From Actinophytocola xinjiangensis (GTDB lineage Bacteria > Actinomycetota > Actinomycetes > Mycobacteriales > Pseudonocardiaceae), in the NCBI RefSeq assembly GCF_001921215.1, contig NZ_MSIF01000001.1:992001-1056000 (forward strand): a DNA stretch of 64,000 nucleotides. The letters are read 5' to 3'. The position numbers were made by a program, and so were the translations under genes. Every line of letters begins with the position of its first letter. Position 1 is the first letter of the stretch. Below the pieces are notes generated by a model. The model had not been told where the DNA came from, made no database searches, and was given only the letters and a program-made list of their open reading frames with translations. Positions 48,113 to 62,656 of this stretch are shown here, piece by piece.

Positions 48113-49312
48113 TCACAGACCGCCGGGATGGTCGGTGTGCCCGTCGATCACTGGATGCAGGGGAAGGGCCGGTGCGGCGAGCAGTCGTCGGCCGGCCGAG
48201 GACGGGCGTACGTTCGGGCCGTCGCCGTTCTGGTTCGGGGGTCGTTGGTGTGTCGTCCGGATGGTGTGTTCGTCGATGTGGATACCGATGCCTGGCGTGT
48301 CGCCGAGGACGAAGGCGCCGTCGTCGACGTGGTGGGCGAGGTGGACGCCGGCTGGTGGCACGAGGTCCTGCAGTTCGGCGGCGAGGTGGTTCGGTAGCGA
48401 GGCGGCGGCGTGGAGCAGTCCGGCCGGGGTGTTGCCGACGGGGCTGACCGGCAGGTCGTGGGCGTGGGCGAGGGTGGCGACCCGGAGGAAGTGGGTGATT
48501 CCCCAGACCGCGCTGGTCTGGACGACGTCGACCGCGCCCGTGGTGAGCAGTGGACGGAACTGTTCGAGGCCGGTGAGGTTCTCCCCGGTCGCGACCGACG
48601 CCCGGATTCCTCTCCCCACCGCGGCCATCCCCTCGGCGTCCCACCGCCGCACGGGCTCCTCGACCCAGGTGAGGTCGATCGTCCGTTCCAGTTCGCACAC
48701 GTGGCGGACGGCTTGCTTGCGCGTCCAGGACTCGTTCGCGTCGAGCATCATGGCCGGCCGCGACGCGGGTCCGGAGTCGGCCAGGACATCCCGTACCAGT
48801 GCGAGTCGGTGCCGGTCCCGATCGACGTCGAGGCCGCCCTTGAGCTTCGCCGCGCGCAGGCCGTGTTCGGCGTAGGTCCGGTACACGGCGACCAGTTCGT
48901 CGTCGGTCAGTGCGATGTCCAGCCCGGAGGCGTAGGCGGGTACCCGCCGGTCGCGGGCGCCGAGCAGTCGCCAGAGCGGTTCGCCGGCGGCCTTGGCCTT
49001 GATGTCCCACAGTGCCGTGTCGAACGTGCCGATCGTGCCGAACACCGCCCCGGCGTGCCCTGCCTTGAACGTGCGCCGCAGCATCCGGTCGTAGAGGGCC
49101 GTGACGCCGCGTGGGTCCTCGCCCTCGATGGCCGCGAAGACGGTCTCGGCGTCGAGGTGCGGGCCGAGGCCGACGCCCGTGATCCCCTCGTCGGTGTCCA
49201 CCAGGACGATCGGCACCGGGGTGTGCCCGTCGGCGAGCACGCCGTTGGCGTCGCCGACCGGGCGTCCCCAGGTCAGGACGGTGGTCAGGGTGCGGAACCC
49301 GGTGATTTCCAT
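48113..49312 (-). CDS. Enolase-superfamily enzyme (mandelate racemase/sugar acid dehydratase type)
   Basis: 399 residues. The barrel shows the KxK motif (AAKLKGG), metal ligands Asp in MLDANESW, Glu in WVEEPV and Glu in ATGENL, and the family's terminal LHAAASLPN. At the seventh-strand position, where mandelate racemase-type enzymes have a catalytic His, the sequence is SPVGN. The enzyme may therefore rely on the Lys base only, or be inactive. The C-terminal 45 residues are Pro/Arg-rich and beyond the usual end. It follows the ABC permease by 2 bp as the last gene of the operon. It may dehydrate or isomerise an imported sugar acid. Confidence 0.85.
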   Translation of the reverse strand: MEITGFRTLTTVLTWGRPVGDANGVLADGHTPVPIVLVDTDEGITGVGLGPHLDAETVFAAIEGEDPRGVTALYDRMLRRTFKAGHAGAVFGTIGTFDTALWDIKAKAAGEPLWRLLGARDRRVPAYASGLDIALTDDELVAVYRTYAEHGLRAAKLKGGLDVDRDRHRLALVRDVLADSGPASRPAMMLDANESWTRKQAVRHVCELERTIDLTWVEEPVRRWDAEGMAAVGRGIRASVATGENLTGLEQFRPLLTTGAVDVVQTSAVWGITHFLRVATLAHAHDLPVSPVGNTPAGLLHAAASLPNHLAAELQDLVPPAGVHLAHHVDDGAFVLGDTPGIGIHIDEHTIRTTHQRPPNQNGDGPNVRPSSAGRRLLAAPALPLHPVIDGHTDHPGGL

Positions 49313-49314
49313 GT

Positions 49315-59200: not shown

Positions 59201-62200
59201 TCACGAGGGCACGGTCCAGCGCTGATTGGCGCCGCCGTGGCAGGTCCAGATGATCAGTTGGGTGCCGTCCGCGGTGCTGGCCCCGTTGGCGTCGAGGCAC
59301 TTGCCGGAGTTGACCAGCGATCCGTTGGTCTGGGCGGCCCAGTTCTGTCCCGAGCCACCGTTGCAGGTGGACAGTTGAACGAGGGCGCCGTCCGCCGTAC
59401 CGGTTGCCGTCATGCATTTGTCCAGCGACCGCAGCGTGGTCCCGTTGCGGGTCCAGCGCTGGTTGGCGCCGCCGGTGCAGGTCCAGAGCTGGATCTTGGT
59501 GCCGTCGGCGCTGCTGGCGCCGTTGACGTCGACACATTTGTCGCCGGCACCGGTGATCGCGCCGCCGTCGCCCCCGGCGGGGGTGCCCACGCCGGGTCCG
59601 ACGAACGTCATCGAGTCCAGGTCGAACGCGTTGTTCGCCGTGGACCTGAACACCACGAACAACTCGACCGTGCCGGCCGGCCGCGTCACGGTCACCGGTG
59701 CCAGGCTCGCGTAGTTGTCCCACCCACCCGTGCTCCCCACGGTCGCGGTGGCCACCAGCTGTCCGGTCGGCGAGTCGGCCCGCAGCTCGATCGTGCCGCC
59801 CGGGCCGGGGGAGGACACCCGGAACGAGACCTGGTTGATGTTGGTCAGGTTCATCGGCGTGAACGAGATCCAGTCGTTGTCGCTGATGTCCCCGATGCGG
59901 GCGCCGGCCTCCGCGCCCGCCTGGGACACGACCCGGATACCGGACGAGCCGGTGAAGTGCTCGGCCTGCTTGTGTTTGGGCTGCAACAGAACCTGGGCTC
60001 GTCCGGTCAGCGCGGGCACGCCGGTGGCGCCGCCGTCGGTGTACACGGCGTCGGCCACGTAGAACAGGTTCGCGTCCGCTCCGTGGCCGCCGTCCGAGCC
60101 GGTCGTGATTGTCCCCGAGCAGCCGGTCCTCGGGTCGAGCGGGTGCGCGTGCTCGTCGTGGCCGAGTGCGGGGGTGGTGACCACCCGGCCGCAGTCGATC
60201 GTCGTGTCCTCCGGGTCGGTGACGGTCACGCCGTAGGGCACGGTGTCCCCGAAGTCGAACATCCCGCCGTGGGCGGGCCCGGTGAACCGGACCGTCGGCG
60301 CCGTGTTGCCGGAGGTCACCGCGACGTTGGCGACTCCGGTCCGCCCGTTCACGGCGGTCACCGTGAGCTGCGCGTTGTACTGGCCGCGCGTGGTGTAGGT
60401 GTGCGACGGGTTGGCCGAGGTGGAAGTGCCGCCGTCGCCGAAGGTCCACCGGTAGGTCAGCGCGCCGCCTGCCGGGTCGGACGACCCGGCGCTGGAGAAG
60501 CTCACGGTCAACGGCGTTCCACCGGAGGACGGGGTTCCTGTCGCGCGGGCGATCGGGGCGCGGTCGCCGGAGATGTAGTCGATTCGGGAGAGAGCGGAGT
60601 CGGGGTTGTCCCGGCCGAACCCGCTGCCCCATTCGAGCAGGTAGAGCGAGCCGTCCGGGCCGAACTTGGCGTCCATCGGCGACCTGAACGTCAGGTTGGC
60701 CAGGAACCGGTTGATCTTCAACAGGTTTCCCGAGCCGTCGAGCCGGAACTCGTGCATCGTGTTGCGCGCCCACTCGCCGAAGAACGCCGTCTTGTCGAAG
60801 TACTGCGGGAACTTGGTGTCCGACGGGTTGTTCGGGTCGTAGTGGTACACGGGGAACGCCATGGGTGCCTCGCCGCCGCCACCCATCTCCGGGAAGGCGT
60901 TGCCGTTGCCGCCGTTGCCGTACCAGACGGCGGCCGCACGCGCCGAGGGCAGGCTGGTGAGCCCGGTGTTGTTGGGGGAGGTGTTGACCGGCGCGGCGCA
61001 GTTGAACGTGGCGCCGGAGGTGTTGTTCGCGAAGTTGAAGTCGTTGAACGGGATGTTGTTCGCCACGCAGTACGGCCAGCCGTAGAACCCGGGGGACTCG
61101 ATCACGTTCCACTCGACCAGCCCGCCCGGCCCGCGGTTGGCGTTGTCGGCGCCCGCGTCCGGGCCGTAGTCGGCCACGTAGAGCGTGCCGTCGGTGTCCA
61201 CGGTGAACCGGAACGGGTTGCGGAAGCCCATCGCGTAGATCTCCGCCCGGGTCTGCGCGGTGCCGGGCGCGAACATGTTGCCGCTCGGGACCGTGTAGGT
61301 GCCGTTCGACTCCGGGTGGATGCGCAGGATCTTGCCGCGCAGGTCGTTGGTGTTGGCCGAGGTCTTCTGCGCGTCGAACAGGGCGCGCCCGGACCGTTCG
61401 TCGATCGGCGTGTAGCCGCTGGACTCGTGCGGATTGGTGTCGTCGCCGACGCCGACGTAGAGGTTCCCGCCCGGCCCGAACGTGAGGTAGCCGCCGGTGT
61501 GGCCGGGTTCGGACTGTCGCGCGGCGGGGATGGTCAGCAGCACCTGCTCGCTGCCCGACACCAGTGAGTCGCCGCTGACCGTGAAGCGCGACACCCGGTT
61601 GACCTCCTGAGAACCGGCTGGCGAGTAGTACAGGTAGACCCAGCCGGTGGTGGCGAAGTTCGGGTCGAGCGCCACGCCGGCCAGGCCGTCCTCGCCGCCG
61701 GTGTAGACCGAGAGGGTGCCGGCGGTGACCGTGCTGCTGGTGCTCGGCTTGTAGATCTTCAGTTGCCCGCCGTACTGGGTGTAGAACACCCGGCCGTCCG
61801 GTGCGATGTCGAGCGTGCCGGGCGCCACGGTGTTGGCGTCCAGTTCGACCCTGTCGTAGTTCGTCCACACGGTCGGGCCGCAGTCGGCCGCGGCGGTGCC
61901 GGCGGCGGACCGCACACCGCCGAGGATGTGTGACCGGAACAGGGGCTCGGAGTACGCGGAGGACTGGTGCCCCATGGCCGTCGCCCACAGCCGGCCGCCC
62001 TCGACGTTGCGACACCAGGAGATCGGGTGGTCGCTGCCCATGCCGGACGAGCCGGGGTCGTAGGTCGTCTCGTCGGCCGTGGCCAGCACGTGCACGTCAC
62101 CGCGGGCGTTGCGGTTGAAGTTGTACCACTCCTCCGTGCGGTTCCAGCGTTGCGGCAGGCCCTGGCCGGACGGGTGCGCCTGGTCGGCGACCTTGGCCGT

Positions 62201-62656
62201 GCCGGCGACGGTGGCCGAGTGCTGGGTCATGGTCATCCCGAGCACCTGGTCCCACCACGGGAACTCGTTCTCGATGTTCATGTCCGTGGCGTTGTGGATC
62301 GCGACGATGCCCCCGCCGCCGCGCAGGTAGTTCTGGAAGGCCGTCCGCTGCGCCGCCGTCGTCCAGACCATGCCGGAGGTCTGGAACATGACGACGACGT
62401 CGAAGGTGGGCAGTGTGCCGTCGGTGAAGACGGTCGAGTCCTCGGTGTGCGTGAGCTGCCAGCCGTTGTCCGTGGCCATCTGCTGGAACATCGCGACACC
62501 GGCCGGGATGGAGTCGTGCCGGTAGCCGGCGGTCTTGGTGAACAGCAGTACTTTCTCGCCCACGGCCGGGGCGGCGGGGGCGGTGGACGCGGTCAGCATG
62601 CTCACCAGCAGGGCGCAGGCGAGCGCGGTCAGGAACGTGCCGAGTGCGTGTCGCAC
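59201..62656 (-). CDS. Secreted ThuA-glucose/sorbosone dehydrogenase-PKD-CBM-ricin lectin protein
   Basis: 1151 residues, first gene of the operon. Signal peptide ([17 protein letters not shown], cleaved near APAA, about 30). Domains: ThuA (about 35-258; [57 protein letters not shown]), GSDH propeller (about 268-675; [47 protein letters not shown]), PKD (about 680-770), a linker domain, a CBM6/35-like module (about 890-1015) and a ricin lectin (about 1020-1151). The architecture joins a sugar-oxidising domain to a ThuA domain and two binding modules in one secreted chain. The ATG is 71 bp from the CelR box. Enzyme activity is not proven for such fusions. Confidence 0.91.
59451..59543. repeat. 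Ricin-lectin coding repeat, copy 3
   Basis: Third copy of the 93-bp segment (see 54920-55012 and 56620-56712), in the first gene of the operon. It differs at nine positions from copy 2, mostly silent. Confidence 0.75.

Follow-up and report, generated by a model that had tools for sequence, protein, structure and literature searches.

Closest described systems

Xyl_S (M768_06655) of Cellulosimicrobium cellulans F16 is a ThuA-GSDH-PKD-CBM6-PKD protein that was purified in 2015 (Dou et al., PMC4562250). It was found in culture supernatant, is produced on corn-cob medium as a member of a large multi-enzyme complex, and in its purified form is a monomer of about 118 kDa that lacks about 500 C-terminal residues (PMC4562250). 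Reported as pure to homogeneity and active, it cleaves p-nitrophenyl (pNP)-beta-xyloside, pNP-beta-glucoside, and 7-xylosyl-10-deacetylpaclitaxel, the last with a kcat of 0.061 per second versus 13.2 for the whole complex (PMC4562250). Xyl_S has no known glycoside hydrolase (GH) domain, and its authors, who could not assign a catalytic domain, proposed a new GH family (PMC4562250). Its first four domains recur in the same order in g1, the first gene of an eight-gene operon (g1-g8) of Actinophytocola xinjiangensis. The operon lies in a window of 64,000 nucleotides (bases 992001-1056000 of contig C1 in the 9.54-Mb genome), and coordinates are positions in this window unless a locus is named. It may be a CebR-controlled, cellobiose-induced operon that strips and uses hemicellulose, probably side chains with L-fucose or L-galactose, a reading to which we give a probability of roughly 0.45.

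Other parts of the operon have relatives in several described systems. Members of PF06439 are linked to the breakdown of 3-keto-trehalose and 3'-keto-lactose in other bacteria, and 3-keto-glycoside hydrolases of this family are described with LacABC-type dehydrogenases (PMC9007349). Family GH141 includes the rhamnogalacturonan II (RG-II) alpha-L-fucosidase BT1002 and the xylanase Xyn141E (PMC10154630, PMC5593877), while GH95 includes alpha-L-fucosidases (PMC10154630). In cellulolytic Streptomyces, the 14-mer TGGGAGCGCTCCCA is reported as the CebR element (PMC4898821). The GSDH propeller is shared with soluble pyrroloquinoline quinone (PQQ) glucose dehydrogenase (sGDH), the aldose dehydrogenases, and the AA12 enzymes; the latter also lack Lys377 of sGDH and hold PQQ partly by other residues (PMC6881789).

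No description of the g1-g8 operon or of its g2-g3 pair was found in the literature searched, which lies chiefly outside subscription journals. The exact combination of genes was likewise not met in these searches, but the claim in a preliminary description of this DNA that no such system is described does not stand as worded: the ThuA-GSDH-PKD-CBM6 architecture was already purified in 2015 as a beta-xylosidase/beta-glucosidase (PMC4562250). Xyl_S differs from g1 in its second PKD domain and its place in a multi-enzyme complex, and the parts of its description that were available report neither a ricin nor a PF06439 domain.

The g1-g8 operon

The operon consists of eight minus-strand genes that run head to tail from 62656 to 48113 (Table 1). 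The g1/g2, g2/g3, g3/g4, and g4/g5 junctions are 4-nt overlaps of the GTGA/ATGA type and g6/g7 overlap by 1 nt, giving overlaps at five of the seven junctions, while g5/g6 and g7/g8 are separated by 3 and 2 nt. The products of g1-g4 have signal-like N-termini and a ricin-type lectin at the C-terminal end. The lectins were assigned by Pfam, whereas the signal peptides of g1-g4 and the lipobox of g5 were judged by eye only. The gene order, coupling, and setting support a single operon, coupled and all in one direction, that has a CebR box and lies among cellulose genes. A scan of 47850-63250 gave no sigma-70-like promoter and no excess of terminator-like matches over chance (6 seen versus 6.0 expected).

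Much of the preliminary description holds at this level. Pfam confirms its eight-gene order and domains, and its stop/start overlaps, its run of four secreted lectin-ending proteins, and its enolase-superfamily enzyme (g8, MR_MLE) were all recovered. Other items were narrowed. The 3-keto-disaccharide hydrolase domain (PF06439) is present in one protein only, g3. The protein labelled as a beta-helix fold is placed by Pfam and PDB 5mqp as a GH141 glycosidase. The CUT1-type importer is represented by a solute-binding protein (SBP, g5) and two permeases (g6, g7), but Pfam finds no transport ATPase among the eight genes.

Two other origins were considered and dropped. A foreign island is not indicated by composition, with a GC content of 0.68-0.70 in the operon blocks versus 0.68-0.74 elsewhere in the window. 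A chance gene cluster was dropped because Actinophytocola xanthii has the same gene order.

CebR boxes and regulatory setting

Three CebR sites with at most two mismatches are present versus a mean of 0.59 expected by chance, a number reached in 1 of 100 shuffles. Two are exact, one before g1 and one before a divergent GH6-CBM2 cellulase gene. Farther on, beyond this cellulase gene, come a GntR-FCD regulator, one more exact CebR box (the third), a ricin protein, and a gene that joins GH5 to ricin. Across the whole genome there are 24 distinct exact palindromic sites, and sites with at most one mismatch give 32 forward matches versus 4 for the reversed control. Ten open reading frames (ORFs) taken at exact sites include, by Pfam, two AA10 lytic polysaccharide monooxygenases (LPMOs), one GH5, and one GH48, together with one each of LacI, SBP, lone GSDH, PF01261, and BNR-repeat; one of the ten has no Pfam match. 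As in the CebR cellulose regulon of Streptomyces, the exact 14-bp box stands beside GH6, GH48, GH5, and AA10 genes, here at their 5' ends, but the g1-g8 operon is not among the members described for that regulon in the source consulted (PMC4898821). On this evidence, the operon is probably controlled by CebR and induced by cellobiose.

A PHB-depolymerase-family esterase gene with CBM2 lies directly downstream of the operon and may share the regulon. On contig C4 (locus L013), a LacI-type regulator is divergent from a CebR-boxed SBP gene, making the two candidates for CebR and CebE. One GSDH gene of this genome stands alone and carries a CebR box; its best PDB matches are to Hedgehog-interacting protein.

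Table 1. Features of the operon, its surroundings, and related loci; locus-based positions are prefixed with the locus name.
Feature	Position	Strand	Basis
g1 ThuA-GSDH-PKD-CBM6-ricin, secreted by eye	59201..62656	-	Pfam
g2 GSDH-PKD-CBM6-ricin, secreted by eye	56361..59204	-	Pfam
g3 ThuA-PF06439-ricin, secreted by eye	54673..56364	-	Pfam
g4 GH141-type beta-helix glycosidase-ricin, secreted by eye	52322..54676	-	Pfam GH141_M, PDB 5mqp match
g5 solute-binding lipoprotein, CUT1-type importer	51057..52325	-	Pfam SBP_bac_1; VAGC lipobox by eye
g6 ABC permease	50136..51053	-	Pfam BPD_transp_1
g7 ABC permease	49315..50136	-	Pfam BPD_transp_1
g8 mandelate-racemase-group enzyme, probable sugar-acid dehydratase/isomerase without His-Asp dyad	48113..49312	-	Pfam MR_MLE, alignments
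CebR box TGGGAGCGCTCCCA, exact, about 70 bp upstream of g1	62727..62740		motif match
Second exact CebR box, about 120 bp upstream of divergent GH6-CBM2 cellulase gene	63063..63076		motif match; GH6, CBM2 by Pfam
Imperfect CebR-like site, 2 mismatches, between g8 and downstream esterase-CBM2 gene	48006..48019		motif match
PHB-depolymerase-family esterase with CBM2	46643-47914		
Stand-alone GSDH gene with CebR box, same genome	L015:1661-2911		
Second GH141 homolog, A. xanthii	L067:435-1985		
Apparent L-fucose-type gene set, A. xinjiangensis	contig C16, 92-112 kb (L198:6703-16912)		NCBIfam, homology, by eye
PF01261/PF01663 cluster representatives, Micromonospora-type loci	L136:12868-14043, L104:3-1568, L106:4127-5701		

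Conservation of the g2-g3 core

The conserved core of the operon is the g2-g3 pair. Among the named loci, which are the best 80 of 560 relatives of the ThuA-PF06439 region, the two genes are adjacent and on one strand in 79. The sole locus without g2 beside g3 is L077, where 5.9 kb of upstream DNA is present and a contig edge is ruled out as the cause. In a sample of 298 genomes of the order, 53 ThuA-PF06439 matches were found in 44 genomes, and 44 of these matches are preceded on the same strand, at 1.4-1.55 kb, by a GSDH domain. These pairs fall in 40 of the 44 genomes; both pair counts are lower bounds, with 5 candidates scored per genome.

The full gene order is rarer. A search in other actinomycetes, as the preliminary description had proposed, finds it among the 80 loci only in A. 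xanthii (L067). All eight genes keep their order in A. xanthii, at 77-90% identity outside the lectin parts, and g1 is preceded at about 1.2 kb by an exact CebR box, with ricin-bearing sequence in between. The g5-g8 block accompanies the pair in 4 of the 80 loci (L067, L092, L093, L099). The lectin appears to be optional, because 5 of the 80 pairs (L094, L096, L121, L132, L141) show no ricin match at the chosen threshold.

Gene fusion ties the same domains together. In five of six genomes of the genus, ThuA and PF06439 matches share one open frame, as frames of equal length at adjacent positions indicate, and in the fused copy of A. xinjiangensis the GSDH, PKD, and CBM6 domains lie between ThuA and PF06439. 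Because of this adjacency and fusion, the case that ThuA, GSDH, and PF06439 are functionally linked and work together is strong. The A. xinjiangensis genome has 7 PF06439 matches. It also has 9 matches (E<=1e-60) to the g3 ThuA-PF06439 region, 8 of them over the ThuA part, and genomes of the genus have 4 to 11 such matches each, ThuA-type genes being numerous.

The surroundings of the pair differ between genera. In Micromonospora-type loci, PF01261 TIM-barrel proteins flank g2-g3 (clusters in 28 and 24 of the 80 loci), and a PF01663 phosphodiesterase cluster is nearby in 21 of the 80. We take this set to be possibly an Ebo-like cluster. Each neighbour cluster was annotated from a single representative; in the GH95 cluster, every member was also checked against that representative.

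GSDH propellers and PF06439

Both GSDH domains exceed the Pfam cut-off of 25 bits (126.8 and 116.5 bits) and align with sGDH, from which the residue register is taken. The equivalents of the catalytic residues His144, Arg228, and Asn229 are kept in all 22 domains of alignment A5 and in 17 of 17 of alignment A2, which includes g1 and g2. The equivalents of the PQQ anchors Lys377, Arg406, and Arg408 are replaced in all 22 A5 domains: the first by Gly (17), Thr (3), or Ser (2); the second by Gln (17), Asn (2), Lys (2), or Ser (1); and the third by Met (18), Ile (3), or Leu (1). At these positions g1 has Ala, Ser, and Met, and g2 has Gly, Gln, and Met. The propeller and the catalytic His and Arg-Asn are thus shared with sGDH, the aldose dehydrogenases, and AA12, but the three anchors of sGDH are absent.

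The occurrence of PqqC, a marker taken over its cut-off, gives mixed evidence because, of the 40 genomes in the 298-genome sample that bear the pair, only 3 have it (G000, G220, G295) and 37 do not, yet it is associated with GSDH across the sample. It occurs in 20 of 79 genomes with a GSDH match at E<=1e-150 versus 21 of 219 others (Fisher p 0.001, uncorrected for kinship). PqqC is over cut-off in the A. xinjiangensis genome, and in the f15 genomes of the sample no PqqC match was found at E<=0.001. An AlphaFold2 model of the ThuA-GSDH region of g1 (alignment A4, 18 sequences) had a mean pLDDT of 51.3 and a pTM of 0.46 and was not used; the cofactor question rests on sequence alignment because the model was too poor. 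PQQ-type oxidation by these propellers is therefore doubtful, but PQQ use is possible because AA12 enzymes bind the cofactor partly through other residues, and a genome without PqqC might still take PQQ up from its surroundings.

The PF06439 domain of g3 scores 137.4 bits versus a cut-off of 26.8. Like the described 3-keto-glycoside hydrolases of this family, g3 pairs an above-cut-off domain with a signal-like N-terminus, but it is fused to ThuA and a lectin, and the operon has no LacABC-type dehydrogenase (PMC9007349). By Pfam, none of the eight operon genes, to which this search was confined, encodes a C3-dehydrogenase. The ThuA alignments contain many invariant polar residues. Cleavage of glycosides by g1-g3 would follow by analogy with Xyl_S, the purified protein with the g1 domain order.

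g4 and the GH141 family

The g4 product is a GH141 glycoside hydrolase by sequence, with both catalytic Asp residues present. Its GH141_M insertion domain scores 35.3 bits versus a Pfam cut-off of 27, and its catalytic stretch matches BT_1002 (PDB 5mqp) with an i-Evalue of 4.4e-29. The catalytic pair (Asp523 and Asp564 of BT1002) is kept in g4 and in all seven homologous segments from six loci that span the site; an eighth (L125) stops short of it. Unlike the characterized members, BT1002 and Xyn141E, g4 carries a C-terminal ricin lectin. Upstream of the A. xanthii operon lies a second, distant GH141 homolog with 25% identity and both Asp residues, which is followed by a CebR box.

g8, its neighbours, and the possible fate of the product

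The KxK motif and the Asp-Glu-Glu metal ligands are retained by g8 and do not vary across the 10 sequences aligned. At the dyad positions of talarate/galactarate dehydratase, the same ten sequences have Ser, Ala, or Gly and Val or Ile. We take the roles of the KxK, metal-ligand, and dyad residues to be those customarily assigned in this group. Its best NCBIfam score, TalGalacDh, is 163.9 bits and does not reach the cut-off of 500.

Of the 298 genomes, 36 contain a match to g8 at E<=1e-90, and fourteen g8-centred loci were chosen by hand from these 36. At E<=1e-25, they include homologs of a lactonase (8), an aldo-keto reductase (AKR; 7), a zinc alcohol dehydrogenase (6), a KduD-like short-chain dehydrogenase/reductase (SDR; 6), an FAH hydrolase (2), and a GntR regulator (12). 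GH141 homologs are present in 4 of the loci and g1 orthologs in 5. The lactonase (229 versus 400), FAH (312 versus 500), and KduD-like (335.4 versus 338.85) scores are under their NCBIfam cut-offs, which would allow more than one sugar.

The non-phosphorylative L-fucose pathway consists of an AKR, a fuconolactonase, an enolase-type dehydratase, an SDR, and an FAH protein. Several relatives of g8 resemble it in standing beside lactonase-like, AKR, and SDR genes, and contig C16 of A. xinjiangensis carries such genes in an apparent L-fucose-type set: FAH and lactonase by NCBIfam, under cut-off; AKR and SDR by homology; and GntR and an enolase-superfamily gene by eye. The differences are that g8 has no His-Asp dyad and scores far under the NCBIfam cut-offs, and that the AKR, lactonase, and SDR genes lie outside the window operon. 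A series of AKR, lactonase, dehydratase, and zinc dehydrogenase with a KduD-type SDR would suit a route from L-galactose to 2-keto-3-deoxygluconate, and by analogy the product may follow this route.

Fucosidase-family genes recur around the pair itself. A GH95 gene lies near g3 in 18 of the 80 closest loci, just downstream in 11 and on the other side in 7, and 17 of the 18 have the g2-g3 pair, the exception being L077. The 134 GH95 matches in 40 genomes, which were chosen from the 80 and include all 18 with a GH95 neighbour, give an expectation of about 0.5 for 80 loci; the loci are related, and no p-value is attached. A fuconolactonase-like gene is near the pair in three Saccharothrix loci. 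Together, the neighbours of relatives point to a hemicellulose bearing L-fucose or L-galactose as the substrate.

Proposed pathway and alternatives

In the proposed pathway, cellulose breakdown would release cellobiose and switch the operon on via CebR. The g1-g4 proteins would bind the plant wall through their ricin-type lectins, and g1 and g2 also through CBM6. There g4 would cut as a GH141 glycosidase, while g1, g2, and g3 (ThuA, GSDH propeller, PF06439) would jointly cleave glycosides by a mechanism yet to be explained. The freed saccharide would be imported by g5-g7 with an ATPase encoded elsewhere, and inside the cell g8 would act on a sugar acid, the probable reaction being a dehydration that follows AKR and lactonase steps.

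Several observations weigh against this pathway. The full eight-gene order is found, among the 80 closest loci, in A. xanthii only; a third species has g1-g3 and g8 on separate contigs; and the neighbours of the pair vary by genus, as with the PF01261 proteins of Micromonospora. The link to L-fucose and L-galactose comes from relatives, the operon itself having neither a lactonase nor an AKR, and the His-Asp dyad by which known dehydratases are marked is missing from g8. The likeness of Xyl_S to g1 that is drawn on here is one of domain order, and the purified Xyl_S, truncated at its C-terminus, is far less active than the whole complex (PMC4562250). GH141 also contains a xylanase (PMC5593877), and PqqC is commoner in genomes with a GSDH match than in others.

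The preliminary description had proposed instead that GSDH oxidises the glycan with PQQ at C1 or C3, after which PF06439 cleaves a 3-keto-glycoside and the product is imported and processed. Its idea of a single glycan pathway is well supported, as the operon encodes what binding, cutting, uptake, and processing of a plant glycan would need, but its oxidative 3-keto step is not established, nor is any other redox step. The loss of cofactor residues, which it had named as a refutation, is observed in part: the His/Arg/Asn trio is kept, and the three PQQ anchors are absent from both window domains and all 22 aligned ones, where Lys takes the Arg406 position in two. PqqC in A. xinjiangensis, its higher frequency in GSDH genomes, the clear PF06439 match of g3 in a family tied to 3-keto-sugar breakdown (PMC9007349), and the preference of a fungal AA12 relative for L-fucose (PMC6881810) all favour such oxidation. 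The rarity of PqqC in pair-bearing genomes opposes the PQQ claim, and the 3-keto chemistry is opposed by the lack of a C3-dehydrogenase in the operon and by the C1 rather than C3 specificity of sGDH-type enzymes (PMC6881810). This oxidative route is unlikely. A related proposal, in which the GSDH proteins are extracellular electron donors to the two CebR-boxed AA10 LPMOs as in fungal AA12, draws on the CebR boxes before two LPMO_10 genes in the same genome and on the report that the AA12 enzyme CcPDH drives LPMOs (PMC12055684). It is very improbable: g1 and g2 have no cytochrome domain by Pfam and do not keep the PQQ anchors, no LPMO is among 20 annotated neighbour-cluster representatives, and a bacterial GSDH-cytochrome protein was unable to donate electrons to an LPMO (cited in PMC12055684).

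ThuA and GSDH could also be catalytically dead scaffolds, leaving GH141, the lectins, and the importer as the parts that matter. The partial loss of cofactor anchors and the many carbohydrate-binding modules in the operon proteins would fit, and the Xyl_S activity, much lower than that of the complex, may come from a trace contaminant (PMC4562250). The invariance of His, Arg, and Asn in all 22 GSDH domains and of many ThuA polar residues speaks for catalysis, as does the reported homogeneity and activity of Xyl_S (PMC4562250), and dead scaffolds are improbable. On the side of activity, a more specific and highly speculative idea is that the ThuA-GSDH and ThuA-PF06439 proteins are extracellular glycosidases of a new class, with a cofactor site other than the PQQ site now known. 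Transient ring oxidation would be followed by elimination of the glycoside and then by re-reduction or release of a keto-sugar. If true, it would explain the fusion of PF06439 and ThuA to the propeller, and how Xyl_S cleaves without a GH domain and with no electron acceptor mentioned in the parts of its description available (PMC4562250). The CebR-controlled hemicellulose operon remains our preferred reading.

Significance

The g2-g3 pair recurs by glycan genes in several actinomycete families, and no assigned reaction was found for it. Xyl_S, which has the g1 domain order, can split xylosides, a taxane xyloside that interests industry among them (PMC4562250). The more valuable object is the conserved ThuA-GSDH/ThuA-PF06439 pair: the nearest protein to have been studied acts on xylosides although no glycosidase domain is recognised in it. 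The operon supplies its partners (PF06439, GH141, an importer, and a mandelate-racemase-group enzyme) and a likely inducer, which makes the reaction directly testable.

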